IMG/VR virus record: IMGVR_UViG_3300017958_000048
Coordinates: 1 to 27,517 of that record
Origin: a virus
Length of the DNA: 27,517 nucleotides
Strand: one strand, 5' to 3'
This document shows positions 1-25,704 of the stretch, piece after piece. Under the pieces are notes generated by a model, which saw only the letters and a program-made list of their open reading frames with translations, was not told where the DNA came from and did not search any database. Each line of letters begins with the position of its first letter. Position 1 is the first letter of the stretch. The position numbers and the translations under genes were made by a program.

Positions 1-3000
1 ATTTATTACAGGTAAGCCACTGGTTCTTTCAAGCAAGAATTTAGCCTGTGCTGTCTCTGCACGTTGTAAAGTAGCGCCGTTAGACGCTGTATTAACGCTT
101 TGCTCGTACCATACTCTGCCCTGTCTTTGAACTACTCTTAGTTCTAAACCATCTTGAGGCTCATCCCTCAACACTAATTTATAGTAATTTTTACCAGTTG
201 AGTCTGCTACTGGTTCAATAGTAAATTCAGGTGTTTGCAATACATCACTTGATGTACCATCGCTGTCTACTTCATCGCTATCATAAGCAATTTCTATATC
301 GTGTACCTTAATAGGATTGTTACTTACTGTTGGTTTTTGCAGTTTTCTACCACCTAAATACACTTCAACCTGATCATGTGCATCAGCACCGTTTGAAATG
401 TTCACAGTTTCAAGCACATGTTCTTGTTTACCGTTTGGTAAACCAGGACGCATAACACTAGTATAGACATTTACTGTTTCTGTATATGGAACAGTTTGCT
501 CAGGGCCAGCATCAAACACTTTTGTTCCTGCTGTATGAACTGTTTTTATACCTGTACCTAAGGTACCACGTGTAATTTGTCCCAGTGTATTGCCACTAAT
601 AGTATAAAACTCAATACGCTCTCTATCAATCCACACAACGCCCGGTGTTTTGTCCGCTGGACTTGGTGTATCAAAGAAACTTGCATCTGCAACTACAATT
701 TCCGTGTCACTAATATTCAAATCTTGTGCAAGTGTTGTGCTGTCTTGTTCACTGATACGCTTGAAGTGTGTTCTGTTAAGCATATCATTAAACACTTTGT
801 AACCAATTGAGTTGTAACTTAGTTCTTCACTGAATGTTGTTACCGTAATTCGTGATGTGGGCAACACTGTAAACTTGTTATCAATTTCAACGGTGGTATT
901 GTTGTCTAAAATTTTGTAATCACGTTCTGCAACCAAAGGTGTTCCATCAATTTCGACCCAAATATAGTTTGAATCAATAGCAGGACGACTTAATTTATAA
1001 GTTCCGCCTAGTTTTCCAGTAAACACTTCTTTTCTAATTAGGTTACTATCATGATTTGTAAATGTTGTTACATGATATTCAGCACGAGTTGGTAACTCTG
1101 CTCTGTCTTTAACAATAATCAAGTTTGCTTCTGTATCGCCTGCACTATCGCCGGTAACATTTACTTCATATTCATGATTTCTCAAAATACTAATTGCAAT
1201 AACATCACCACTTGTTAACACATTCTGGTTAAATGTAACCAAGTTTGTTTGAGTATCAAAGTTAAAGTCTCTAATTGGAACAAGTTTTGCGCCATTTAGA
1301 TACACTTCAATCTCACCTAGTGCTAGTGCAAACACAGGATATTCAGGATCTTGACTTACTGTGTATTGTTGTGTAACACCATTGCTTACATAGTAAACAG
1401 TATCTGGTGGTAACAATCTAGTAATTGTACCTGTGTCTAGATCTTTTACTTCTGCAATTACCATATTGTGATAAGGAGCAATATTACCAGGAATATTTGA
1501 CATTGTGTATGCCATTGTGCTTCCGTCATCTGCTATAGATTCTTTTACAATTTCACTATATGTTTTTTCTGTACTGCTTAGTGCGGTAATTTGAATAACT
1601 GCATTACTTACAGGAGGAGGATTTGAAATATCAATAATTGCACTTCCTGTATCGCTTTCTCTAATTACATATTCTTTGCTTACACCATTTGAAGTAACAA
1701 ATGCACTGCCAACATCTTCATATTTCGCAGTTAATTCATACTCTGTTGTGCTACCATCTCCAATAAATTGTTTTCTTTCAAGAATATTTGCACCGCCAAC
1801 ATTTAAAGTCTGGATGGTTACAAGTTCATCTATTTCAGGTGCATCAACAAAAACGATTTCTTTGTTTTGATAATCAATTGTGTAGTCTGTGCCATTTTCT
1901 AAATATGAACCTGCTACGGTAACAAATACACTATCTTCTGTGCCTGGATATAAATCAAACCCATAGCGTCTTAATAAACTGTTACCAAAGTATCTGTTAG
2001 TAACAATTAGCGGTGATCCATCTGCAGGAGCATTGTAAATGCTCATGCTTAAACTATCAAAACACTGACCTGGAACTACTTCTTCTGGTGCATGGCTAGT
2101 ATCCGGTGTAACAAACCCATCACCGTCTATGTTAATATCTTCTGGTTTAGTACCTGTTGCAGTATTGTAACTAAAATTACCACCTTGAATAATAGCATCA
2201 AGGTTGTTTACATCTGTTGGAACAAGCGAACCGTCTGATTCTTTTTGTCTAAACACAACAAGTGTGCCGTCTTGTGCCGCAACTCCTAATGTAAATGTAT
2301 CTGTATTACCGTCGCCAACAATAGTAGGTGTATTTGTCGGATCTTGTCTTACACTGTCAAAGTACACATTTATTTCTTGTCCACTTTCTGGTGTGTATGG
2401 TAATGTAAATGTAGTTGTTGTACCATCTGCACGGAAAGCATAATCAGTGTTAGTACCTGAGAATGTATCCCAACCATGACTAAACCATGGAAGACCATCC
2501 CAGCCAACACTAATATCAAACTCTAATCCTTGTACTTGAACGCCATCATACTCAACTCCTGCCATTAACTGTGCTGGATCTTTACCAAGCATACCTGCTG
2601 TTGGTGCATAATAGTAATCAATTCTATCAGTAGCCTGCATTAGATTGATCGATTTTTCATATGTAATGCTTACATCTGCATTTGCACCAGGAGGTGTATT
2701 AAAAATAATATAACCTTCTTGTTTTTTATAGGTTCTATCTTTTACTGATACAATACTAACATCATAGTTTTCAATATAAACTGTTTCGTTTTCAATGTTA
2801 ATATCAATTTTACGTTTATCAAGTGTTGGAAGATAGGTTAGTTTAAACTTGATCTGTCCAGCACTTGCTGTAAATGTATCAGTTTGTGTTTGTGTTTGAA
2901 TAAGTTTTTTGGTTGCAATTCTATCAAACTTCATATTAACTGTGTTAATACGCACTTTTTTATTTTCAAGTATTGCATAAGCAGTTGCTTCTTGTGTAAC

Positions 3001-6000
3001 AGCATTTTCTCCACCGCCTCCAGCAAGTGTTACTGTTGGCGCACTTACATATCCACTACCAGGATTAGTAACAACCACTTCTCTTACAATACCTCTTGAA
3101 GTATATGCTACTGCTGTAGCATCTATAAACTCTTCTCCTGGCAATGTCTTATTACCGTTTGGTAGTATAGGTGCTCCATAATAGGTAGGACCAATGATGT
3201 AAGGATAAACTGCAATATCTGTATCGGTAGGATCTACAGTTACAAAATAAGCATATGTTCCATTTGGATATTCTGGAGTATTACAGGTTCTACCGTTGTG
3301 TTGGTCTAGATCTCCTAGGCCCGCTACATACTCAAAATCTTGTACATATCTTCCATCAGGATCGCTTCCATCAGTTCTTGGAGTAGTTTTAAGTCTATAA
3401 CTAGATTTCATTACCCTAGGATTGCTTCTACCAGTAGGTGTGTCCCATCCATATGGTCCATAAATTGGGAATCCATCAAGTGCATAACCCAACAACGGTG
3501 AATGCTGTGTTGGATCTTTATCATACATTAAGCGTGGATCGCTATGATAATGATAAACACCATCTTCTTGTGGATGTCCACTACCATCATCAATACCTAA
3601 CTCGTCATGGCTGAATACTGCGTTTATTTCATAATCAACATTTCCACGTTTTTCTGTCAGTGCGGCTTTTGGATTGAAGAACACCACACCATTAACAGCA
3701 ACACCAATAGTACCCAGCGGAGTAGCAACTTTATCAAGTGCTTCAACTGGGGTACGTGTAATTTCAAAAGTAAAGTCTTGTGCTGTTACTGTATTAACAC
3801 CAGGATTTCTAGCGAAACCATGATCTGGTATACTTGTGGTTTTTACAAAAAATCTGTTATCTGTGTAATCTGTAGTAACAAGAGGTCTAAATTCTTGTGT
3901 TTCTGTAATTGTAGGTTTATTTGTTCTACCGCCACTAATAACAACAATAGGTGGCTCAGTGTATCCTGCGCCTTCGCTAGTTACATTGATGCTTCCAATT
4001 TTAAATTTATAATTGTCAAACCAATTTACATACGGACTTTGTGTAATTATATCACTAGTAATTTTAGGTGCTATGAACGATTTAAGTTCATCGTCCCAAT
4101 AACTAGGTAAATCAAAATCAGTATTACCAATATTTGATGTTTCAATACTTTCGTATTGATTAACAAAATTACGTAAAACTGTTTTGTATGGTTTGACTTC
4201 TTCAATATATCTTTCAACATAACCAGGATTACTAATTTTGTAGTTTATTTTCTTAGAAAGGCCGCCGAGTTTATTTTTAACTGTAATTAAACTGCTCTTA
4301 AATACCCAATCAACAAAACTCTGTTCACTAAAAACGTATCTAATTGCAATAAAGAATAATTTATTCCAATTTTCTTTTAGATCATCTACAAAAATATTAT
4401 CTTTAATGATTTCTATAATACGCCTTGTTTCAGTAATAGGTTCACTATCAAACAAGTTGACATCATAGTTTTCTAAACCAGCATAACCAAAGTTTAGTTC
4501 TTCATAATTGTATATGTTTGAATTTATTTGAATTGTTGAGTTTGCTTTGTACATTAAATCATAATCATTATTAAATGTACCATTAGTAATAACTTTTTTC
4601 AAGATCATGCTATTACCATCGCCGGCATTTTCAACTCTTATAATATCTCCTTCTTGCGGATTAATTGTATTCAATTCATACGGAGCACTAATTTTATAAT
4701 CTATAATTGTATCAATATTATAACCCGGAACAATGTAATCTTCATATCTCCAAAAACGTCTTAAATCATAAGTTTGAGTATTTGTTCTTGACCATAACTT
4801 TGTTGTAGTTTGCCATTCGTAAATTGCCCAGTTATTATTAGCAGTACTATCAACTTGAACTAGCACTCTAAAAGGTCTAATATAGATATTACAGAAACTA
4901 TAATTTGTTCCTTGTTTTACAACATCAATTGAGGTTATTTCGCCATTAGCATTAATATTTGCTTTTAGTTTGGCGCCGGTTCCGTTTCCTGTAATTTGTA
5001 TTTCTGGAGGATTTTTATATCCAAAGCCAGAATTTACTACTTTTACAGATTTTACTCTACCATTGACTAGATTTACTGTAGCACTTGCTTGTACTAAATC
5101 TTGTGTTCCAACATTATCTAAATCTTCAATTTCATCAATAGTAATATCCCACTTACCTGTCCCTTGTGCTGGTAATGGATCTTTTTCAAATAATGGTTGA
5201 ATATTTTTGGTATCAACAATTCTTTCCCTAAGCATTATTTGATTTGTGTATGTAATCAACGTTTCTAAGGCTTTTAGTCTTTCAACAAACATGCTTTGTC
5301 TAGGACGAACTTGAATCCCGTATTTGCGTTGCAACGGTAATGCTGTATCTGGTACTGGATTTCCAGTGCTGTCATATCCTGTTAAACTATCAATAAGTTT
5401 TTTAATAAGAAGTTCGTTATCGATTTTCTTATATTGATTTTCTCCTATTAATTGCCATTCATTGTGTTCAGGAATATCAGTTTCAATATTTCTATACTGA
5501 ATGTTAAGGAAAACATTACTGTCATCTAATGTTGTTTTAACATTACTAATGCTTAGTGCATTTTTACTTAACAACTGAATGCTTTTTACTCCATAGGCTT
5601 GCGGGTCTGTAATAATATTTGCAATCTCAACCACAGGAATATTTCTATCCGGTAAATTAGGAACATCAACTTTATTTTTTACCCAGAAATAATATCTAGT
5701 TTCAAAACCGCCCGAAACACTATTATAGATATTTTTCTGTGTAAACACATCGTCGCCATATTTAGGTGTTCCACTAATTCCTTGTGCATATCCTTGCTGA
5801 GTTGAAGATAACTCTAACCATTCGCTAGGCAATAAACTAGACTCAACCCATTCATATACATCTATAGTAGATCCAGGAAATAATGATCCCCAGTTTGTTT
5901 TTCTATACTCAGTATCACCCTGTTCATACCAAATAAAACTAGCGGTTGACAAATCCCACCAAACTTCCCCTACATGCTCGTCTGTCCATGCAGTTGTTGG

Positions 6001-9000
6001 CTTAACATTAACAGTATTTGTACCAAAAGTATACGTTGCAGGATCTACATCTGTTTTATATTTGAGTTCCGCATCTGCAAGGTAGGATATTTTTCCTTTT
6101 GCAGGATCAATTGTTTCTAAAAAGTCTTTAACTTTATTTGTAGCACGATTGTAAGTAAATGCCTTTTTAACACTGTATGGATCTACTGGATCATCTTGTG
6201 CTCTTAATTTATTCCAGCCGCCACTACCTGTTTTTTGATATACAAACAAACTTCCAATTGATTGATTATCAATATTTTTGCTATTAGGGGATCCTACAAC
6301 AAGAGAATTTCCTGTATAAGCAAGACCTCTACCAAACTCATCAAATTCATTTGTGGTAATAGAACTAATATTTTGTCCAAAAACAAACTTAGTATTAATT
6401 AAAGTATATGTATAAACTGTACCACTTGCATAATTTTCATCGATAATACCTAATGTCCCTGCATCAAATGTTGTTTCCGCACTAGTTTCATCTATTGTGC
6501 TATCTTCTAGTATAGTAAATTTGTCAAATGTTGTTTCTAACCTATTACGCCCATGTTGGCTCCATACTGCAAAAGCATTTCCTTCTGCATTTAAAGATAG
6601 ATTAGCACCAAACTGTTCTTGAACTGCTTTTAGAGGACTAAAAATAGTTTGCTGGTATGTGTACAGGTCTTGACTGCTATCGTCGCCTGTTTTTTTGAAG
6701 TAATAAACTGCACCGCTGTTAACAGTATTTGTATCGTCATATGGCGCACTTATAATAAGTGTGGTTCCGTCACTGCTCATATCCATCGCATAGCCAAAAC
6801 TATCGCCTGAATCTATTTCATTAAGTGTTGCACTGCTAATTGTTTGTAAAAGTTGATATTCATTATTGTTGTCTAAACTATAAATGAATACTGCACCTTT
6901 ATTGGCTGTGCTATCATCGCCTTGTTCTTCGTATCCTGGCGCACTGACTGCAATCATGCTTAGGTCACTAGTTGCAGTCATAGTAGATCCAAATCTATCA
7001 CCATCTCTGCTATTAGGAATAGATAGAATATGATGATCACTTAAATCCCAATCGAGTGTGCTACCATCTGGTCTAGTTGTTTTATCGTAAATGTAAACTT
7101 TACCTTGATAATTTGTTTTACCCGGAGCACCTACAAGCAATTTAGTGTTAGACACTAATACACTAGATCCAAAGTGCATGTCATCTTCAGGTTCACTTGC
7201 TCCGATTACATAATTTAATTTAAAAAGATTTTCTTGTGTGTCATATGTATGAAGTGTTACTACACCTTCTCTGCTGTAAGGACTTGGCTCTATAGTGAAG
7301 TCACCCACGCTTACTCTAAATCCATTACCGTATGTGCTATCATCTGCACCTTTAAAATTACTAGATTCAGGTGCACCTGCGGCTAATACCGTTCCATCAT
7401 TGCTTAGAGCAAGACTAGTTCCTAGTGCAGGATTTCCTGCGTCACTTACAATGTTATCACTAGCATTAAATGAAATACTAAAACCTTGTGTTGTTTGTAG
7501 TGTTTCAATACCTGTGTTAAATTCTCTATTAAGAACATATATTTGTCCTTCATCTCCAAATGTAGGAGCCGCAACAACTATAGTTCTTCCTTGATTGGCT
7601 GTTGCAACATTAAAACCAAACTTTTGTCCTAGTATTTCGTTCGGACTTCCCCATTTGTTTTCTTTGAATGCTCTTGTCTTTTGATATACTGCCCACTTGC
7701 CAGTACCGTCATCGTCGGCGTAGATTAAACTATCGTCTTCAATTTTAGTAACATTTTTTATGTTGTTAATATCGTCAGGATTACTAACTCTATTAGTAAT
7801 AAATTCTAAAATAGTTCCTGCTGTACTATCTTCTAAAGATGCACTTGAATCTTCTCCTGCAACTTTAAATGAAGTTGTACTTGGTATTGATTTTACTTCA
7901 TAAACATTATCGATATCATCACCGAAATTTTTAATACTAATAAGTTGTCCTACTTGTAGATCATGAGGTATATCTGTAAAGAAAGTGATTTCTCCATCAA
8001 AAAACTGTGTTTTGATATCATCAGTTTGAATAACCCTTGCAGGGATTGATTGCAACTGATATACATTCCAGTCATTATCTCTGTCTTTTGCTACCCAAAC
8101 TAAGTCACTATCATCTAACTGATTAATGATACTACTTCCAATCATATCACTATATCTAAATGCTGTTGTAGGAATATCATCTACTCTTGGATAACCTGCT
8201 ACCGGTAGTTTATTAATGTAATCGCTTGTTATCCCATCTTCGGCACTTAAATTTGTAATCGGCCATGGGTTATTATCATAGTTTGATGGCTTAATTGCAA
8301 TACCATTAGCAAGCAATTGAATATTATTACCTGGTGATGTATTTGTTGTAACTGCACTTACAAAGTCGTACGCCTGAGGATTATCTAAATTGTCTTTTTC
8401 ATTTAGAACAAATTCAATTTCATTTACAGTAGAGGTACTACCATAACTTCCTACCTTAAAGGCCCATTCTTCGTCAAGTTCTACATTTGTGTTCACACCG
8501 TCAATGCGTAAACGTCCAATCCCGTCAACAGCATTTTTGGTTCCTTTTTCTTTAATATAGCCTTGATAAAATTTATATTGTGCTGTACTGTCTTGAATAA
8601 GGTTATCTAAATAAAAACGCTTTTGATAGCCAATCAAGTGCTGTGATAATTTGGTTGTTGCATCATCAAATGTTTCTGTATCAAGGTTATAAAAGTCTTG
8701 GAAATTACTAATTTTAAAATCTAAATTAGGCAACAATTCGGCCTTGGGTTCATTTTCTAAATAAATCCACTTTGAATATTCAAATTCACTACTACCAGCA
8801 ATAAAAGATTTTGCACTATAAAATTTAGATTTATATTTTACAACATCACCTAAATTATAATCTTTATAATTTGTCCACGGAGCAATCTTTGCTTCATCAA
8901 AAACAAATCCCGGACTGAACAAATCACCATCCCATTCTGTAGTTTTAAACCCAATTAATTTTAATCTTTCTTGTCTGTATCCTGCTTCTTGATCATATAT

Positions 9001-12000
9001 AACATCGCCAAAAACACTCTTATCGTCAAACACTAGAACATGTTCTTTTTGTATTAAATTTAGTTGTGCATTAAAGATACCTTCTAGTGTATCTTTTGGC
9101 ATTAGTTGAAAAGTACCGCTCTCTCTAATAGTGCTGATATTATTTCTACTAATAATAGTTCCTGCGGCATTATAGATAGAATATTCATAAAAACTATCTA
9201 AAACATTATCTACTTGGCCTGTTGCAAAGTTGAATTTAATTTTGCCAGCAAAAGGAGATAATGTAATAACACTTCCTACATTCCAGTTTTGTGTTGTCCA
9301 GTATAAAAATTCTTTGCCGCTTAACTCCCAATTTGAAAGTTCTCCAAGTTCATTAATTTTTTCATCAAACACAAATCCTATACTTTCTAAATATTTTCCG
9401 TATCCTAATAATAAGTTATACACTTCCTGAATATTAGGTAGAACAGTATTGTATGGAACATTTGATACAACTTCTTCAAATCTAGTTGGCTTTTGAACAC
9501 TTGCTCCGCCAGTAAGTGGAAGTTCTGCTAATCTAGAAAATTTTGTAGGATCGAAGACTGTATCACTAGTGTGATCTTCGTTTGTTCTATAATAAAATCC
9601 ATCATACTGAACTATTTGGCCGATACCATAAAATTTTTGTTCTTGCCAAAGAATAAATTTTGCAGAAGTTCCACCAATGTTTACCGCTTGATCTCTCTGT
9701 GAAAGAATAGGTTTGTAAATTTGAAACCGTGGTTGATACTTGTTATATCCTTTAACCAAATATCCTTTATCAGTCTTTTCAACAATTACACCGCTTATGT
9801 TTGCAGTAAAGACTGGATTGCTTTTTCTAAATGTAACTTCATAATTCTCATCTGGTAAGAAAATACTTTTGTCTGGTTGATTAGGATTACTGCTTTCTAG
9901 TAAAACTCTTAATCGTTCTTTGTTAACAAATGCACCCGTTTTGTATGCTAGATTCATACTGATGTTTGTTAGTCTTTCGTGATATCCAGCAACAACATCT
10001 TGTGATTTAGATTTTAAGTAATCAACAACAAAAACATGATATCCTGCACCAAAGTATCTTACATCATTGTAAAATAGATTGTGTATTTTAATATCTGTAA
10101 AATCTATAATTTTACCAGTTGATTTATAAATTGTGTTTCCGCTTGCTGATTGTAAATTTTGACTTGTATCAAACTGTGTAGTTAGATAGTTTGCAGGTTT
10201 TGTTAATGCTAGTGCCACTTGAAGTGCATATGGATACCAACTGCTAGATCTCCAAGCATATTCTGCAGGGCCGGTGTCACCAAATACCCAATCTTGGTTA
10301 AGATTTGTTGTGATAAATCCACTAACTAAGTTTGCTTGAATAGGACTTAATAAATCTCCATAATCATTTACAGGAAGAATTTTACTCAATCCAGGTCGTG
10401 CATAGATTGGATTTGATTTTCCAATGCCGTAATCAAATCCTTTTTCGATATCTTCCCAAAGAATATCATTTCCTTTTGTGTAAGGCGCCGGGCCATAACG
10501 ACCTTCCCACCAACTAGGTTGTTCCGAATATCCTAGCATTTCCCACGGTGCAGTATGCGGACGATCGGTGTCATAAAACTTTTTATATATTGCTCGCCAA
10601 TATCCTGGTAAACTTTCATTATTAATAACATCGTTGCCTGACGATAGGTTATAAGAAAATACATCTCCTTCAACGCTTGTTGTATTTTCTAAATATTCGA
10701 TACTATATAGATTTGACCAGTAGTTAAAATCGTCTTCTAATATTTCGTTAAATTCTTGTGTAGTATAACTATTATTTCTAAAAGCACCTGGAATAAATTT
10801 ATTGCTATCAAAAACACTTCTATTATATTCTACTTTTATGTTGTTGTAAATTCTTTTTTCCAGTTCAAGAATAATGTCATCTCTATAATCGTCATAGGCT
10901 ACTACTTTACTACCGTCATGGCCTTGGATTACTTTTGTTGGAGTAACATATGTGTCATCTACATAAATTTTAGGTTGAAATTTTGGATACAAACCTAACT
11001 TAGTTGGTGTGCTAGGTATAACATTACCCGTTGTGTCATAGTCGTATACTACAACTGTATCTCCAATACTTGTTGGTCTCAAAATAGTTACAGTATTATC
11101 TGTAGGATCAAACTCATAGTCTTTAGTATTAATTAAATGCTCACCATTAAAATAAACATATACACTTCTATTAGATATTTGATTTAAATTAAAGTTTGAT
11201 TGAATTCCAAATATCTGTTGTTCAAACGCATTAACAGTATATTCATTTTTAGTTAATGAACGACCAAACCCAGCCATGTCACTATAAAAATATTGACTAT
11301 TTGGTTGCGTATTCAGTGCCATGCTGTACAATATTGCATCTACATCATCGCGAGGATTGCCAGATATTTCAGTTTTATCAAAAACTTTTATAAACTGTTG
11401 TTTGAATACATTATAATCTAAAGCATTTTTTCTAATTGCTTTAATAACATTTGTTTCACTATCTACTAAACCAAAGATAGCAGGAAGTACACTGCTTTGA
11501 TGCTTTACGTACCTTCTACCAAATTTGTATAAATCTTTAATGTCACGTGCATTAGAAGTACGATTAAATTGTCCCACAACACGCTGATCATTTGAAAAAA
11601 TTGTTTGTACGTGATCTGAAACACTACCTAAAGTAAATGTTTTTAAGTCATTATTTTCACTGTTATTAGTTAAATTGATAGGAGGTTCATAAAATCCAAA
11701 CTGTGTTGGTGTTTGGTCTGTTAAAATTTTAATTGTAACTCTTACATCACCCGGGATGCTTTCTGCAAAATCTAAGAAAAGTCTTTTGTTCTCTGCTCTA
11801 AAACTAAATCCATGATTTGATTTTAAAATATTACTTTCGTATTCTACAACAATATCTTGAGGTTGCAAATGTAACCCAGGATCAATTATTGATGTTATTT
11901 CTATAAACGGTGTAGTAATAACTGTATCATTTATTTGTATAATTTTTTGTCTAATGTCTTCATCTACAATAGACCAACCAGATTCAAAAACATAAGTTGT

Positions 12001-13923
12001 TAAATCTTCGCTAACTTTTACATTACCACCAGCAGTATCTTGGACAACATTTTGATCGCCATTATTATATGTAAAACTTTGATCATCCCAATCAAACTCA
12101 AAAACTATATCGCCAATATTAGCAACGTTTTGATATTCGAGTGGAAATCCTAAAATATTATCGTTTGCGCCTGTGCCAATTTTATAACTTACTAATTCAT
12201 TTCCTTGAAATGCATTGACCCCATATTTTGAATCACTAAATGATGTGTTATTGTTATCATACAATTCAAATAGAGGTGCTTGATTTATAGTAGTTTTTTG
12301 TTGCCCACGAACCCAATGCACTCCGTCAAAATACCAACTAGTACCTTTTTCACTTCTACCGTCTTTAACTACTATACCTTGACCGTTAACAGGCGTTTCT
12401 TTTTCAATTAAATGTAGTCTAGATTTACCGTCGTGACTTACAAAGTCTACTTCATAAATTTTGCCTCGAACTGTAATATCAGTATCTGCATTGAATGTAA
12501 CCCTCATGCCTTTGGTTAAATCAATTTCATCAATGTAATAACCAATCTGTCCTTCAACATCACTAAATGCATCTGTAGTAACAGTATCAATAACATCAAT
12601 GTTGCCGATTCCTTGTGTGGCAAAATTATGTAATTGTATATTAGGCTTAAATTCAATAATCGGTCTTTTTGCCCTAGTATTTTCATCTAATACCGCATTG
12701 ATATTATTATATTTTGCTGTTGCTTCAATAACATCAACATGGAACCATCTATTATAGCGACTCCACGGATTTTTATCAATGCTTGCACGATTGATTGTTA
12801 CATATTCAGGAATTGTTGGCGAACTTTCTGCATCATCGTATGGAGTTTCATCAAAACTTTCAATATCAAATTCGTAGTCAAAATTCTGACTGTATCCTTC
12901 TGGTGTGTCAAATTCTGTAACAGGTAGTAGTTTAATTTTATCGCCAACACCATCAACATAAAAGTTTTTATTCTTATAGGTTGACGGAGTTACATCGCCT
13001 GTAAAATTAACTTTTAATCCGTTTGTAAATTCTACACCATTTGCACTTGTATATTCTCTTTTACCTAAAATTTCCGTAGGAATATCAATGTTTAATTCAT
13101 CAACTGCATTTTTAATTTCAAAAATACCTTGCATTTCTTGATGATTGCCACAAACGTAATATAAAATATCAGGAGCACCTTTTGGAATAGTAAACACAAC
13201 TGCACCATTTTCTGTACCGTTATTTGTAATTCCTTCTTCGTATTGATCTAATTCTCCAACTGTTTTAGCAAGTTTAATATAAAAGGGATGTCCAGGTGCA
13301 TTAACCTCAAACTTATATGTTGCACCTCTATATAATTTGATAACTGGATTAGCACTGCTTCCGTCTGGAGTAAACACCCAAGCATTACTATTTTGATTAG
13401 TTACATTAAACGAACTTACACTTCCTTCTGCAAGACCTGTTACAGTAACCGGACTAGGACCTTGTGGTAGCCAATAGTATTGTCTGTAATTTGCAATCTT
13501 ATCAAAATCAATATGCGGATTCCAGGCATAATAATTTCCTGAAAATAATCTGTCATGATTGTTAGTTTTGCCGTTAAAAAAATCTATTTGATTAATTAAA
13601 TCGTCATATGTTGCTAACCAATCTGTTCTATCATCAAAATCATCTCTAATTACAGCACTTGGTAATAGATTATATCTTCTACGATTAGAGGTAGGCTCTG
13701 TTAAATATCTGTCAGAAGTTCTTGCAGAACGTGCATATCTAGAACCAACAAATCCATTAACTTTTTCTAGTTGGCCTTTAGAAATAAGTGAATCTAGTGT
13801 AGCCCCTAAAAACTTTTTATTGGCTTCTGTTCTAAAAAACAAAGGTAAAAGATTAGCACTATTTCTGTACTGGTCTTTGTTTTCTGCGTTTACTGGAACG
13901 TTGTTATTATCGCTATAAGCCAT
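1..13923 (-). CDS. Giant multi-domain baseplate/virion structural protein (C-terminus beyond window)
   Basis: The minus-strand frame is open from the ATG at 13923 to the window edge, giving at least 4641 residues and no stop. The start is supported by a TAATG overlap with gp6 and a GGAGGT ribosome site at 13935-13940. Domains in order are: a cupredoxin-like domain (about residues 165-275), two aromatic carbohydrate-binding-like modules (about 1420-1460 and 1680-1720), seven FG-GAP repeats forming a likely beta-propeller (about 2100-2562), Gly-x-Gly-Tyr-x-x-Pro-Pro repeats (near 2960, 3315 and 3625), a YHYH domain (about 3365-3582), and repeated beta-rich modules up to the truncation. It sits where T4 encodes wedge protein gp7, but I see no resemblance to gp7. 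A tail-tip or wedge-attached structural role is inferred from position, size and extracellular-type domains. Similar giant proteins are known beside gp6 in marine T4-like phages. The exact role is unknown. Confidence 0.85.
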   Translation of the reverse strand, partial: MAYSDNNNVPVNAENKDQYRNSANLLPLFFRTEANKKFLGATLDSLISKGQLEKVNGFVGSRYARSARTSDRYLTEPTSNRRRYNLLPSAVIRDDFDDRTDWLATYDDLINQIDFFNGKTNNHDRLFSGNYYAWNPHIDFDKIANYRQYYWLPQGPSPVTVTGLAEGSVSSFNVTNQNSNAWVFTPDGSSANPVIKLYRGATYKFEVNAPGHPFYIKLAKTVGELDQYEEGITNNGTENGAVVFTIPKGAPDILYYVCGNHQEMQGIFEIKNAVDELNIDIPTEILGKREYTSANGVEFTNGLKVNFTGDVTPSTYKNKNFYVDGVGDKIKLLPVTEFDTPEGYSQNFDYEFDIESFDETPYDDAESSPTIPEYVTINRASIDKNPWSRYNRWFHVDVIEATAKYNNINAVLDENTRAKRPIIEFKPNIQLHNFATQGIGNIDVIDTVTTDAFSDVEGQIGYYIDEIDLTKGMRVTFNADTDITVRGKIYEVDFVSHDGKSRLHLIEKETPVNGQGIVVKDGRSEKGTSWYFDGVHWVRGQQKTTINQAPLFELYDNNNTSFSDSKYGVNAFQGNELVSYKIGTGANDNILGFPLEYQNVANIGDIVFEFDWDDQSFTYNNGDQNVVQDTAGGNVKVSEDLTTYVFESGWSIVDEDIRQKIIQINDTVITTPFIEITSIIDPGLHLQPQDIVVEYESNILKSNHGFSFRAENKRLFLDFAESIPGDVRVTIKILTDQTPTQFGFYEPPINLTNNSENNDLKTFTLGSVSDHVQTIFSNDQRVVGQFNRTSNARDIKDLYKFGRRYVKHQSSVLPAIFGLVDSETNVIKAIRKNALDYNVFKQQFIKVFDKTEISGNPRDDVDAILYSMALNTQPNSQYFYSDMAGFGRSLTKNEYTVNAFEQQIFGIQSNFNLNQISNRSVYVYFNGEHLINTKDYEFDPTDNTVTILRPTSIGDTVVVYDYDTTGNVIPSTPTKLGLYPKFQPKIYVDDTYVTPTKVIQGHDGSKVVAYDDYRDDIILELEKRIYNNIKVEYNRSVFDSNKFIPGAFRNNSYTTQEFNEILEDDFNYWSNLYSIEYLENTTSVEGDVFSYNLSSGNDVINNESLPGYWRAIYKKFYDTDRPHTAPWEMLGYSEQPSWWEGRYGPAPYTKGNDILWEDIEKGFDYGIGKSNPIYARPGLSKILPVNDYGDLLSPIQANLVSGFITTNLNQDWVFGDTGPAEYAWRSSSWYPYALQVALALTKPANYLTTQFDTSQNLQSASGNTIYKSTGKIIDFTDIKIHNLFYNDVRYFGAGYHVFVVDYLKSKSQDVVAGYHERLTNISMNLAYKTGAFVNKERLRVLLESSNPNQPDKSIFLPDENYEVTFRKSNPVFTANISGVIVEKTDKGYLVKGYNKYQPRFQIYKPILSQRDQAVNIGGTSAKFILWQEQKFYGIGQIVQYDGFYYRTNEDHTSDTVFDPTKFSRLAELPLTGGASVQKPTRFEEVVSNVPYNTVLPNIQEVYNLLLGYGKYLESIGFVFDEKINELGELSNWELSGKEFLYWTTQNWNVGSVITLSPFAGKIKFNFATGQVDNVLDSFYEYSIYNAAGTIISRNNISTIRESGTFQLMPKDTLEGIFNAQLNLIQKEHVLVFDDKSVFGDVIYDQEAGYRQERLKLIGFKTTEWDGDLFSPGFVFDEAKIAPWTNYKDYNLGDVVKYKSKFYSAKSFIAGSSEFEYSKWIYLENEPKAELLPNLDFKISNFQDFYNLDTETFDDATTKLSQHLIGYQKRFYLDNLIQDSTAQYKFYQGYIKEKGTKNAVDGIGRLRIDGVNTNVELDEEWAFKVGSYGSTSTVNEIEFVLNEKDNLDNPQAYDFVSAVTTNTSPGNNIQLLANGIAIKPSNYDNNPWPITNLSAEDGITSDYINKLPVAGYPRVDDIPTTAFRYSDMIGSSIINQLDDSDLVWVAKDRDNDWNVYQLQSIPARVIQTDDIKTQFFDGEITFFTDIPHDLQVGQLISIKNFGDDIDNVYEVKSIPSTTSFKVAGEDSSASLEDSTAGTILEFITNRVSNPDDINNIKNVTKIEDDSLIYADDDGTGKWAVYQKTRAFKENKWGSPNEILGQKFGFNVATANQGRTIVVAAPTFGDEGQIYVLNREFNTGIETLQTTQGFSISFNASDNIVSDAGNPALGTSLALSNDGTVLAAGAPESSNFKGADDSTYGNGFRVSVGDFTIEPSPYSREGVVTLHTYDTQENLFKLNYVIGASEPEDDMHFGSSVLVSNTKLLVGAPGKTNYQGKVYIYDKTTRPDGSTLDWDLSDHHILSIPNSRDGDRFGSTMTATSDLSMIAVSAPGYEEQGDDSTANKGAVFIYSLDNNNEYQLLQTISSATLNEIDSGDSFGYAMDMSSDGTTLIISAPYDDTNTVNSGAVYYFKKTGDDSSQDLYTYQQTIFSPLKAVQEQFGANLSLNAEGNAFAVWSQHGRNRLETTFDKFTILEDSTIDETSAETTFDAGTLGIIDENYASGTVYTYTLINTKFVFGQNISSITTNEFDEFGRGLAYTGNSLVVGSPNSKNIDNQSIGSLFVYQKTGSGGWNKLRAQDDPVDPYSVKKAFTYNRATNKVKDFLETIDPAKGKISYLADAELKYKTDVDPATYTFGTNTVNVKPTTAWTDEHVGEVWWDLSTASFIWYEQGDTEYRKTNWGSLFPGSTIDVYEWVESSLLPSEWLELSSTQQGYAQGISGTPKYGDDVFTQKNIYNSVSGGFETRYYFWVKNKVDVPNLPDRNIPVVEIANIITDPQAYGVKSIQLLSKNALSISNVKTTLDDSNVFLNIQYRNIETDIPEHNEWQLIGENQYKKIDNELLIKKLIDSLTGYDSTGNPVPDTALPLQRKYGIQVRPRQSMFVERLKALETLITYTNQIMLRERIVDTKNIQPLFEKDPLPAQGTGKWDITIDEIEDLDNVGTQDLVQASATVNLVNGRVKSVKVVNSGFGYKNPPEIQITGNGTGAKLKANINANGEITSIDVVKQGTNYSFCNIYIRPFRVLVQVDSTANNNWAIYEWQTTTKLWSRTNTQTYDLRRFWRYEDYIVPGYNIDTIIDYKISAPYELNTINPQEGDIIRVENAGDGNSMILKKVITNGTFNNDYDLMYKANSTIQINSNIYNYEELNFGYAGLENYDVNLFDSEPITETRRIIEIIKDNIFVDDLKENWNKLFFIAIRYVFSEQSFVDWVFKSSLITVKNKLGGLSKKINYKISNPGYVERYIEEVKPYKTVLRNFVNQYESIETSNIGNTDFDLPSYWDDELKSFIAPKITSDIITQSPYVNWFDNYKFKIGSINVTSEGAGYTEPPIVVISGGRTNKPTITETQEFRPLVTTDYTDNRFFVKTTSIPDHGFARNPGVNTVTAQDFTFEITRTPVEALDKVATPLGTIGVAVNGVVFFNPKAALTEKRGNVDYEINAVFSHDELGIDDGSGHPQEDGVYHYHSDPRLMYDKDPTQHSPLLGYALDGFPIYGPYGWDTPTGRSNPRVMKSSYRLKTTPRTDGSDPDGRYVQDFEYVAGLGDLDQHNGRTCNTPEYPNGTYAYFVTVDPTDTDIAVYPYIIGPTYYGAPILPNGNKTLPGEEFIDATAVAYTSRGIVREVVVTNPGSGYVSAPTVTLAGGGGENAVTQEATAYAILENKKVRINTVNMKFDRIATKKLIQTQTQTDTFTASAGQIKFKLTYLPTLDKRKIDINIENETVYIENYDVSIVSVKDRTYKKQEGYIIFNTPPGANADVSITYEKSINLMQATDRIDYYYAPTAGMLGKDPAQLMAGVEYDGVQVQGLEFDISVGWDGLPWFSHGWDTFSGTNTDYAFRADGTTTTFTLPYTPESGQEINVYFDSVRQDPTNTPTIVGDGNTDTFTLGVAAQDGTLVVFRQKESDGSLVPTDVNNLDAIIQGGNFSYNTATGTKPEDINIDGDGFVTPDTSHAPEEVVPGQCFDSLSMSIYNAPADGSPLIVTNRYFGNSLLRRYGFDLYPGTEDSVFVTVAGSYLENGTDYTIDYQNKEIVFVDAPEIDELVTIQTLNVGGANILERKQFIGDGSTTEYELTAKYEDVGSAFVTSNGVSKEYVIRESDTGSAIIDISNPPPVSNAVIQITALSSTEKTYSEIVKESIADDGSTMAYTMSNIPGNIAPYHNMVIAEVKDLDTGTITRLLPPDTVYYVSNGVTQQYTVSQDPEYPVFALALGEIEVYLNGAKLVPIRDFNFDTQTNLVTFNQNVLTSGDVIAISILRNHEYEVNVTGDSAGDTEANLIIVKDRAELPTRAEYHVTTFTNHDSNLIRKEVFTGKLGGTYKLSRPAIDSNYIWVEIDGTPLVAERDYKILDNNTTVEIDNKFTVLPTSRITVTTFSEELSYNSIGYKVFNDMLNRTHFKRISEQDSTTLAQDLNISDTEIVVADASFFDTPSPADKTPGVVWIDRERIEFYTISGNTLGQITRGTLGTGIKTVHTAGTKVFDAGPEQTVPYTETVNVYTSVMRPGLPNGKQEHVLETVNISNGADAHDQVEVYLGGRKLQKPTVSNNPIKVHDIEIAYDSDEVDSDGTSSDVLQTPEFTIEPVADSTGKNYYKLVLRDEPQDGLELRVVQRQGRVWYEQSVNTASNGATLQRAETAQAKFLLERTSGLPVIN
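3180..3830 (-). other. YHYH domain inside the giant protein
   Basis: Residues about 3365-3582 show the order of conserved blocks I know from YHYH-family proteins: an opening Ile-Pro-Asp-His-Gly-Phe block, Gly-Val-Ala-Val-Asn-Gly-Val, the signature Gly-Val-Tyr-His-Tyr-His (Tyr-His-Tyr-His at 3457-3460), Leu-Gly-Tyr-Ala-Leu-Asp-Gly-Phe-Pro-Ile-Tyr-Gly-Pro, then His-Asn-Gly-Arg-Thr, Pro-Asn-Gly-Thr-Tyr-Ala-Tyr and a final Tyr-Pro-Tyr-Ile. The module looks complete. Its biochemical function is not established to my knowledge. Confidence 0.8.
6200..7640 (-). other. Seven FG-GAP repeats (integrin-alpha-type beta-propeller) inside the giant protein
   Basis: Seven blade motifs of the form Phe/Leu-Gly-x-x-(hydrophobic), then about 10 residues, then a strand ending Gly/Ser-Ala/Ser-Pro, recur at about residues 2102, 2169, 2253, 2317, 2378, 2432 and 2536. 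Most blades continue into a strand such as Gly-x-(Val/Ile)-Tyr-(Val/Ile)-Tyr. Blade 6 is degenerate and has lost the Gly-Ala-Pro end. Seven is the number expected for a closed integrin-alpha-type propeller. This fold commonly mediates protein or glycan binding. Confidence 0.72.
13096..13430 (-). other. Cupredoxin-like domain inside the giant protein
   Basis: Residues about 165-275 of the giant protein form a beta-rich segment with the ligand pattern of type-1 copper proteins. One histidine (H212, in Gly-His-Pro-Phe) comes from an early loop, followed by C258, H261 and M264 in the late loop Tyr-Tyr-Val-Cys-Gly-Asn-His-Gln-Glu-Met. The Cys-x2-His-x2-Met spacing equals that of amicyanin. The fold is inferred from this pattern. 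Whether copper is bound or the domain is only structural cannot be told from the sequence. Confidence 0.6.
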
Positions 13924-17406: not shown

Positions 17407-17438
17407 TTAAATTATAAACTGCGTATATAATTTTGTTT

Positions 17439-23601: not shown

Positions 23602-23901
23602 CTATCCTCCAATTACCGATCTAATAACATCGCCATCAGGAACAAAAATTTCTACTCCTGCTACAAAATCAAAAATAGGATCATCTATAACACTGGGGTT
23701 TCTTGCTTTGAATACCCACCATAAATTAGGATCATTATAAACATCACTTGCTAGTAGATCTGGTCTATAATTGTATTGCGGTTCTATTTTATAAACAACA
23801 TCATCTCTCTTAAAAGGCAAGTCTCTAAATTTTAAAATATCCAGCGAACCATTACGAATAGGAGTTGCACCATATAAACTTGTTTTTGCGTAACCTGCCA
23901 T
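23602..23901 (-). CDS. gp53: gp53-like baseplate wedge protein (LysM-like)
   Basis: This 99-residue protein resembles the conserved part of gp53, the wedge component that in T4 clamps neighbouring wedges and gp6 together. T4 gp53 is about 196 residues, so this is a short form. Visible signatures are Tyr-Asn-Tyr-Arg-Pro-Asp-Leu-Leu-Ala (residues 43-51), Asn-Leu-Trp-Trp-Val-Phe (58-63) and a C-terminal Gly-x-Glu-Ile-Phe-Val-Pro strand, all typical of LysM-type baseplate proteins. It starts one base after the gp48 stop and ends two bases before the hub gene. Its ribosome site (AAAGGA) lies inside the end of gp48, which suggests coupled translation. Confidence 0.85.
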   Translation of the reverse strand: MAGYAKTSLYGATPIRNGSLDILKFRDLPFKRDDVVYKIEPQYNYRPDLLASDVYNDPNLWWVFKARNPSVIDDPIFDFVAGVEIFVPDGDVIRSVIGG

Positions 23902-23902
23902 A

Positions 23903-24733
23903 TTAAATCATTCCTTTGTTATTAGTTTCTTCACCTTCAATAAACTTATCAATACTAAATGTTGCTTGGTCTTTTCTTGAAAATGCTGGTAAACATTCAA
24001 TTGTAAATTCTGCTCTGCTTGGCATTGCTGTATATTCGTCTCCTCGTTTATGACTTGGATCTGCTGTGATATAGTCTACGTCTTCATTAAGTGTGTAGAA
24101 GAAACTTGAAATAACAACAGGCATGTCATTAAATTGATATGCTCCGTAACCGTCAAGCAAACAAACAGGCGGCGGAGCACCTAAATCTCTACCACTACCA
24201 AAATTCATTTTTGTAACTGACCTTAGAGCATGTATTGCTCCCATCATATATCTTGCTTCGTCTGGGTTTTGTGCTGTAAATGTTCCAACAATAGAAATTG
24301 CGTCCAATTGTGAATTCTGATAAGCATAAAATGCATAATTACTATGTGTTGGCGATAATGCATTGTAGTTTGCTCTTGTTTGAACAACTATTTGCGGAGT
24401 GTATGGAAATACTACTGCTCGGTCGCCGTTTAATGATAAATGCTTTGCTGGCCCTTTCAAATATGCTGTTGGAATTTTAATTTTGATGCGAGGATCACCA
24501 CCTAATCTCTGTCCTGTAAAAGAAAGGAACTGTGTTTTTGGTCTAGGAGTGCCGTTTTTTTTACCGTCAGGATTTAACTTTCCTTTAAGTCTTTTGTATG
24601 CATCGCCTAAACCGGTAGCATCTGCTAAACTATCAACAAGTTTAGTACCAAAGCGATTTAGTCCGTCTGCAAAATTTTCCTGTCCGCCACCTCTGCGGGC
24701 ATCAGCATCTAAATTGTCATTTCCAGTTGTCAT
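23903..24733 (-). CDS. gp48: gp48-like baseplate tail-tube cap / initiator
   Basis: The 276-residue product matches the gp48/gp54 tail-tube initiator group, which caps the hub and templates tail-tube assembly. In T4 these are 364 and 320 residues. Here only one such gene is visible, and I favour gp48 from synteny with gp53. Characteristic blocks are Val-Val-Phe-Pro-Tyr-Thr-Pro-Gln-Ile (about 107-115), Leu-Ser-Pro-Thr-His-Ser-Asn-Tyr-Ala-Phe-Tyr-Ala-Tyr (about 125-137), Gly-Thr-Phe-Thr-Ala-Gln-Asn (about 151-157) and Pro-Pro-Val-Cys-Leu-Leu-Asp-Gly-Tyr-Gly. The first 70 residues are charged and Gly-rich. It is the first gene of the leftward operon, with an AAGGAG ribosome site 10 bases before ATG and a late-type promoter box just upstream. 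Confidence 0.82.
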   Translation of the reverse strand: MTTGNDNLDADARRGGGQENFADGLNRFGTKLVDSLADATGLGDAYKRLKGKLNPDGKKNGTPRPKTQFLSFTGQRLGGDPRIKIKIPTAYLKGPAKHLSLNGDRAVVFPYTPQIVVQTRANYNALSPTHSNYAFYAYQNSQLDAISIVGTFTAQNPDEARYMMGAIHALRSVTKMNFGSGRDLGAPPPVCLLDGYGAYQFNDMPVVISSFFYTLNEDVDYITADPSHKRGDEYTAMPSRAEFTIECLPAFSRKDQATFSIDKFIEGEETNNKGMI

Positions 24734-24752
24734 ATCTTTTTGGCTCCTTTTG

Positions 24753-24769
24753 GCAATAATATTTATTGC
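24753..24769. repeat. 17-bp perfect inverted repeat in the divergent promoter region
   Basis: GCAATAA and TTATTGC are exact inverted copies around a TAT centre. The repeat contains the whole late box and the first four bases of the gp55 -35 element. It could be an operator for a dimeric regulator, or a by-product of AT-rich promoter sequence. Confidence 0.5.
24760..24767 (-). promoter_or_regulatory. Late promoter box for the baseplate operon
   Basis: On the minus strand the sequence AATAAATA lies 27 bases upstream of the gp48 start. It matches the late promoter of T4-like phages (TATAAATA in T4; NATAAATA has been described for cyanophages). It is the only such box in the gap, and no -35 element is needed for gp55-dependent promoters. 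A start point near 24750-24755 would leave a short leader containing the AAGGAG site. No other convincing late box lies in the short gaps further down the operon. Confidence 0.65.
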
Positions 24770-24794
24770 ATTTATTAACTGCGTAGTTTATAAT
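24766..24794 (+). promoter_or_regulatory. Sigma70-like promoter for gp55
   Basis: On the plus strand TTGCAT (24766-24771) and TATAAT (24789-24794) are separated by 17 bases, the optimum for host vegetative sigma factor. The predicted start is near 24801. A GGAG ribosome site (24808-24811) lies 6 bases before the gp55 ATG, giving a very short leader. Confidence 0.7.
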
Positions 24795-24817
24795 AAGACT
24801 TACATACGGAGATTCTT

Positions 24818-25674: not shown

Positions 25675-25704
25675 TTGACAAACACACACGTTTTCGCTTA
25701 TAAT
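25675..25704 (+). promoter_or_regulatory. Consensus sigma70 promoter for gp47-gp46
   Basis: TTGACA (25675-25680) and TATAAT (25699-25704) are both perfect consensus hexamers, 18 bases apart, placed just after the gp55 stop. The predicted start is near 25711. An AAGGA ribosome site (25720-25724) lies 5 bases before the gp47 ATG. This indicates early expression by unmodified host polymerase, independent of gp55 transcription. Confidence 0.82.

Follow-up and report, generated by a model that had tools for sequence, protein, structure and literature searches.

Divergent predicted promoters overlap in a conserved unit at the late sigma factor gene of jumbo T4-like phages

The sequence analyzed here (the window) is a linear 27,517-base IMG/VR virus record (IMGVR_UViG_3300017958_000048, positions 1-27,517) and covers part of the genome of an uncultured jumbo T4-like phage. 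The cultured relatives with the best coverage are jumbo phages, namely PA5oct and its kin, Phosso, Atu_ph07, and the RaK2/121Q/Munch/CBB group. The gap under study separates two divergent transcription units, and the gene on its right was named as the late sigma factor gp55 in an earlier note made from the sequence alone. This identification was borne out by matches to PHROG 12791, annotated "sigma factor for late transcription", and to T4 gp55 of PDB 7d7c (residues 145-238, E 6.1e-6); PHROG 234 was matched as well (Table 1). The protein is thus homologous to gp55 in the part that holds sigma region 2, and a Pfam search with it returned no match. About 140 N-terminal residues are without a T4 counterpart, the T4 alignment starting only at residue 145. 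On the left, the divergent operon opens with a virion structural gene followed by a gp53-like baseplate wedge gene. To the right of gp55 lie SbcD- and SbcC-like genes (T4 gp47 and gp46). The sbcD-like gene is preceded by a perfect TTGACA-18-TATAAT (12/12; 25675-25704), kept in relatives G001-G004, so the promoter of that gene is separate from that of gp55. On the minus strand, positions 1-13923 hold a 4641-aa reading frame that runs off the window, with matches to families of virion structural proteins and of baseplate wedge proteins.

Table 1 Elements of the gp55 gap and its flanking genes, in window coordinates
Feature	Position	Strand	Evidence or remark
gp53-like baseplate wedge gene	23602..23901	-	PHROG 7145, E 1.4e-21; PF11246 at its cut-off
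Virion structural protein gene, first of the divergent operon	23903..24733	-	PHROG 12050, E 1.7e-42
Ribosome binding site AAGGAG, baseplate operon	24744..24749	-	sequence
Late box AATAAATA facing the baseplate operon	24767-24760	-	fits -13 to -6; predicted start 24754
Bases common to late box and -35	24766..24767	both	sequence
-35 element TTGCAT of gp55 promoter	24766..24771	+	3/6 match to TTGACA
Spacer of gp55 promoter, 17 nt	24772-24788	+	sequence
Near-palindrome AACTGCGTAGTT directly before the -10	24777..24788	both	partly conserved across gaps
-10 element TATAAT of gp55 promoter	24789..24794	+	6/6; predicted start 24801
Ribosome binding site GGAG, gp55	24808..24811	+	sequence
gp55-type late sigma factor gene, 284 aa	24818..25672	+	PHROG 12791, E 2.5e-83; PDB 7d7c

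The earlier note had also placed two promoters in the gap: TTGCAT, 17 bases and TATAAT facing gp55, and a late box toward the baseplate operon sharing two bases with that -35. Both placements proved correct to the base. Measured against sigma70-type sequences (TTGACA, 16-18 nt, TATAAT), the gp55 promoter combines a perfect -10 and a spacer of the permitted length with a poor -35, and it was absent from the list of a standard scan because this -35 matches at only three of six positions. On the other strand, the box AATAAATA lies about one helical turn before the predicted start, ahead of virion genes, as NATAAATA does in T4-type late promoters; the rule for this start was taken from PMC2988020 (this and the other papers are cited from the parts available). 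From these elements we infer promoter activity and start sites, and the leaders (AAGGAG, 10 nt and ATG on the minus strand; GGAG and ATG on the plus strand) are compatible with both predicted starts. No late box toward gp55 was found in the window.

The late box resembles those of known phages. T4 late promoters, served by gp55, gp33 and gp45, likewise have an 8-bp box at -13 to -6 in which A is allowed for T at -13 (9 of 50 sites; PMC2988020), and the window encodes a gp55 homologue alongside. Unlike in T4, the window's gp55 carries the N-terminal extension of about 140 residues, and its box is fused to an opposite-strand sigma70-type -35. The late box of S-PM2 is NATAAATA (PMC2984593). The late promoter type of Aeh1 is CTAAATA (PMC1524935), to which the commonest box of the relatives, ACTAAATA (88 of 165 gaps), is alike; the window differs in having AATAAATA, and both types occur in one clade.

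We compared the elements with chance expectation. The box core ATAAATA has one copy in the window against 15.7 expected, and this single copy is the gap's late box. TTG-N20-TATAAT occurs twice against 1.05 expected, so the sigma70 promoter by itself is not significant. Among 20,000 dinucleotide shuffles of the window gap, a late box overlapping a TTG..TATAAT promoter arose once, and the fused element as defined for the relatives 12 times, both definitions being post hoc. A DNA search of phage records with the gap alone gave E values of 0.9 or worse among the matches listed (8 of 37). The decisive evidence for overlap of the predicted promoters is its conservation in relatives.

Searches with gp55 from the window, two uncultured relatives and RaK2 (at least 80 loci for three of the four), together with 13 named records, provided 280 gp55 loci, window included; the gap set drawn in this way is not a random sample. 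A 5' end and start were kept in 269 of the 280, and 262 of these 269 were called divergent from a minus-strand gene. For the other seven no neighbor was found, six of them being ~180 nt or less from the end of a contig. The script overlooked PA5oct despite the divergent order in its record, and this phage stands outside the gaps counted. The count covers 168 distinct gaps of 50-260 nt, with 5 of 173 distinct gaps excluded as shorter than 50 nt; ten pairs among the 168 have an identical 53-nt core. Genes on contigs were called with a home-made caller that misses some genes.

A late box, N[AC]TAAATA, faces the baseplate side in 162 of the 168 gaps (shuffles: mean 23.3, largest 34), with Phosso scored as a miss because the script's start call cut off its box. 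In the late-box count three gaps lacked one element, and one more was dropped in the conserved-base comparison. Boxes toward gp55 were found in 16 of 168 gaps against a shuffle mean of 17.3, and a late promoter for gp55 itself was rejected as a general feature, since these plus-strand boxes do not exceed the shuffles. In ten gaps such a box lies 16-21 nt before the gp55 start.

We defined the fused element as TATTTA(N0-1)TTG[AC] followed, after a permitted spacer of 16-18, by a -10 matching at least 5/6. Late box and -35 are fused in this way in 136 of 168 gaps (shuffles: mean 0.05; opposite strand: 0), and the spacer is 17 nt in all 136; once equal 53-nt cores are merged, 127 of 158 remain. 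When any distance was allowed, the two elements overlapped by 1 or 2 bases in 135 of the 141 gaps that have both, and in the other 6 there was no overlap. The -35 of fused gaps is TTGACA/T in 105 of 136 and begins with TTGC in 31, the window among them. In seven contigs carrying the fused element, and in the window, it occurs once per contig, at gp55, and none was found between other genes. The comparison of relatives, suggested beforehand in the earlier note, thus upheld the arrangement: the predicted target site of the late sigma factor lies physically within the promoter of its own gene, and this is kept in most of the 168 relatives. Chance overlap was rejected on the orientation counts, the shuffles, the rarity of the core and the overlap in relatives.

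In three relatives' contigs, late-type boxes per kb are far denser between genes than within them. Ten G001 proteins whose genes follow such boxes were scanned: six gave matches to virion families (two tail tube, one head-tail adaptor, two virion structural and one tail-fibre-like protein), one matched a ferredoxin family, and three are without an informative match. The ferredoxin-family gene of this uncultured jumbo phage (L099 6554-7228; PHROG 3704, E 1e-104) lies behind the late-type box ACTAAATA.

The named jumbo phage records extend this picture to cultured phages. gp55 is divergent with a late-type box facing away from it in 13 of 13 records (two pairs having identical gaps), and a late-type box toward gp55 occurs in 0 of 13. 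In enterobacterial jumbo phages the arrangement persists with the box next to the -35 and 25-27 nt between box and -10, and PA5oct has a wider spacing of 44 nt. Atu_ph07 keeps TATTTAGTTGACA, with its best -10 46 nt from the box and none at 17 nt. Phosso has a wide gap with CATAAATA close to the annotated start, and the SCTP-2 box is doubtful because the nearest one is only 1 nt from the start codon. In other lineages the -35 is lost and a TGTGCTATTAT type -10 lies near the box. Together these gaps form a natural series that runs from overlapping through adjoining to separated promoters, and some of its members are cultured jumbo phages. Loci L055, L058, L059 and L062 have wider promoter spacing and weaker boxes toward the baseplate side. 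These four, from a related lineage, also carry AATAAATA facing gp55, further upstream than 16-21 nt, an orientation that could make the feedback positive rather than negative.

Parts of this arrangement have precedents. In RB49 and S-PM2, early and late elements occur together at one gene, as here, but both promoters serve that gene, whereas here they point in opposite directions to different operons (PMC2984593). The RB49-type middle mode, with both promoters before the same gene, was not found at gp55: the window is without a gp55-facing late box, and the relatives have such boxes at chance level. Like the window, CBB has a promoter upstream of gp55 (CBB_244), an ATAAATA late motif, reported at 35 places, and a divergent gene order (PMC5259590). 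Unlike in the window, its box and -35 lie side by side without being fused, and the available part of that paper does not discuss overlap or feedback. The cyanophages P-SSM2 and S-SSM5 share the order gp55, gp47, gp46; both (2/2) differ in that gp55 is in line with upstream genes, with no divergent baseplate operon. No title or abstract that we found describes the fused divergent arrangement, subscription papers lying mostly beyond the scope of that search. Elsewhere in the relatives, CCTAAATA lies within the TTGACA-17-TATAAT spacer of a QueE-like gene, in the same direction (L098 12560-12600; G001 152572, minus strand). The same is seen in G003, with a similar form in G005, and looks like an early and a late promoter for one gene.

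The two predicted starts are 47 bp apart, which makes simultaneous occupancy physically implausible; this distance outweighs the two shared bases in importance. T4 late complexes melt -12 to +2 (PMC7892883), with gp33 near -39 and -36/-35 and a clamp that lengthens the footprint by 13 bp upstream (PMC2988020). By analogy, a late complex here would span 24753 to ~24806 and cover the gp55 promoter from its -35 through its -10 to the start, and its melted part would begin at 24766, the first base of that -35. A sigma70 complex would, by the size of its footprint, likewise cover the late box. From this geometry we infer that the predicted promoters exclude each other, and we consider it probable that the gap is a compact, conserved divergent promoter unit of this kind.

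In the mechanism that we propose, a sigma70-type promoter on one strand (poor -35 and perfect -10 in the window, TTGACA or TTGACT in most relatives) would drive gp55, and a T4-type late promoter on the other, read by polymerase carrying gp55, would drive the baseplate operon. Polymerase on either side would cover the opposite promoter, and each DNA copy would at any moment serve gp55 or the baseplate operon, never both. One outcome could be a self-limiting handover: after the onset of late transcription, gp55 would set a limit to its own synthesis. It is plausible that gp55 would shut off its own gene. That exclusion matters as such a handover is a weaker claim, which we put forward tentatively and at well under even chances. 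In its full form, late complexes at the baseplate promoter would silence gp55 on each DNA copy, synthesis would be capped by replicated, clamp-loaded genomes, and the overlap would be under selection for this throughout a large clade of uncultured jumbo phages; we regard this as rather unlikely. A search for the clamp family PF02916 found it in 0 of 6 contigs, where the controls were equally silent. Such a promoter unit would give a T4-like phage a specific and testable cis mechanism for keeping its late sigma factor in check.

The main rival of this feedback switch is compaction alone, whose chances we put a little below even. The promoters would then simply be crowded into a minimal gap, their use at different times having other causes, such as a host sigma factor or polymerase changed by the phage, and the overlap would have no regulatory effect. 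Gap lengths, mostly 62-101 nt, are in keeping with this, as are other very short divergent gaps in G001 (42 and 46 nt), in which either strand carries boxes. One 42-nt divergent gap (G001 48471-48512; L093 8471-8512) has one AATAAATA box per strand and separates a head-tail adaptor gene from a virion structural gene. A late/late pair as tight as the unit at gp55 indicates that close packing also arises without early/late logic. T4 turns off its early promoters by other means, and the gp55 promoter here may be silenced by other means too.

Against compaction alone, the spacing of box, -35 and -10 is constant in fused gaps, whereas the leaders range over 1-35 and 7-38 nt; a mere lack of insertions and deletions would not explain that constancy. 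The junction takes the forms TATTTAG/TTGA (87 gaps), TATTTA/TTGN (43, the window's form) and TATTTAT/TTGA (6), the slash marking the border of box and -35. On a FastTree gp55 tree these forms changed at least nine times, with only three changes between fused and not fused, which suggests that the box shifts between ACTAAATA and AATAAATA with the overlap kept. A junction rebuilt so often with its overlap retained is not what compaction alone would lead one to expect, and either promoter alone accounts only for its own part. Over 3,000 random pairs of gaps, mean identity is 1.00 for TATTTA, 0.91 for TTGN and 0.95 for the -10, against 0.40 and 0.37 for the 12-nt flanks, the first value being fixed by the selection of gaps and those for TTG[AC] and the -10 partly so. 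The proposal of the earlier note that polymerase carrying gp55 would block the gp55 promoter, giving a feedback switch, stands in part: its elements are conserved, the box faces baseplate genes and the starts are close, but the tight late/late pair, the relatives with wider spacing and the ten gaps with a gp55-facing late box speak against a special switch.

A second alternative concerns the class of the gp55 promoter, which the earlier note had called early. It could be a middle, or delayed-early, promoter dependent on a phage factor, which might act at AACTRCGTAGTT, a reading that we consider unlikely. In its favor, the window's -35 is poor, the bases ahead of the -10 are conserved, and CBB, which has three promoter motifs, places gp55 under the second, with TGAAACG replacing TTGACA, unlike its RpoD-like class (PMC5259590). 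Against it, TTGACA/T-17-TATAAT prevails among the relatives (105 of 136 fused gaps), and the conserved element may belong to the late side, since the large baseplate wedge gene has it too, ahead of its late box. In G001, TTGACA/TTGACT promoters precede genes such as QueE-like, dNMP kinase, SSB and small regulator genes, a set in keeping with early or DNA-metabolism functions; of seven such proteins scanned, three are without a named family. Given the TTGC forms in 31 of 136, window included, and the second class of CBB, "early or delayed-early" is a better term than "early".

A reverse effect, in which host polymerase on the gp55 promoter would keep the baseplate promoter from leaking early, before gp55 has accumulated, shares its geometry with the proposed handover and would be helped by the strong -35 and -10 of most relatives, but it is improbable, the window's -35 being weak and leakage expected to be small because late promoters need gp55 anyway.

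The near-palindrome before the gp55 -10 is not confined to this gap. A related sequence precedes, by ~9-10 nt, the late box of the window's large baseplate wedge gene (PHROG 10646, E 7.1e-299) and those of like-sized genes in G001, G003, G004 and G006, and occupies a similar position in G005; G007 has a degenerate form at best. Late boxes are mostly without an upstream element, and two baseplate promoters share ACTRCGYA.. ~9-10 nt upstream. Palindrome core and late boxes are associated (Fisher p 1e-5, a value inflated by homologous gaps and uncalled genes and given no weight as a test). The near-palindrome may serve some late promoters as an operator or upstream element. The form AACTRCGYAGTT recurs before the baseplate late boxes of the gp53 operon, the large wedge gene and a hub-like gene in G001; the sites are window 24777-24788 and ~17409-17424, L096 1041-1060 and the L122 4478 region.
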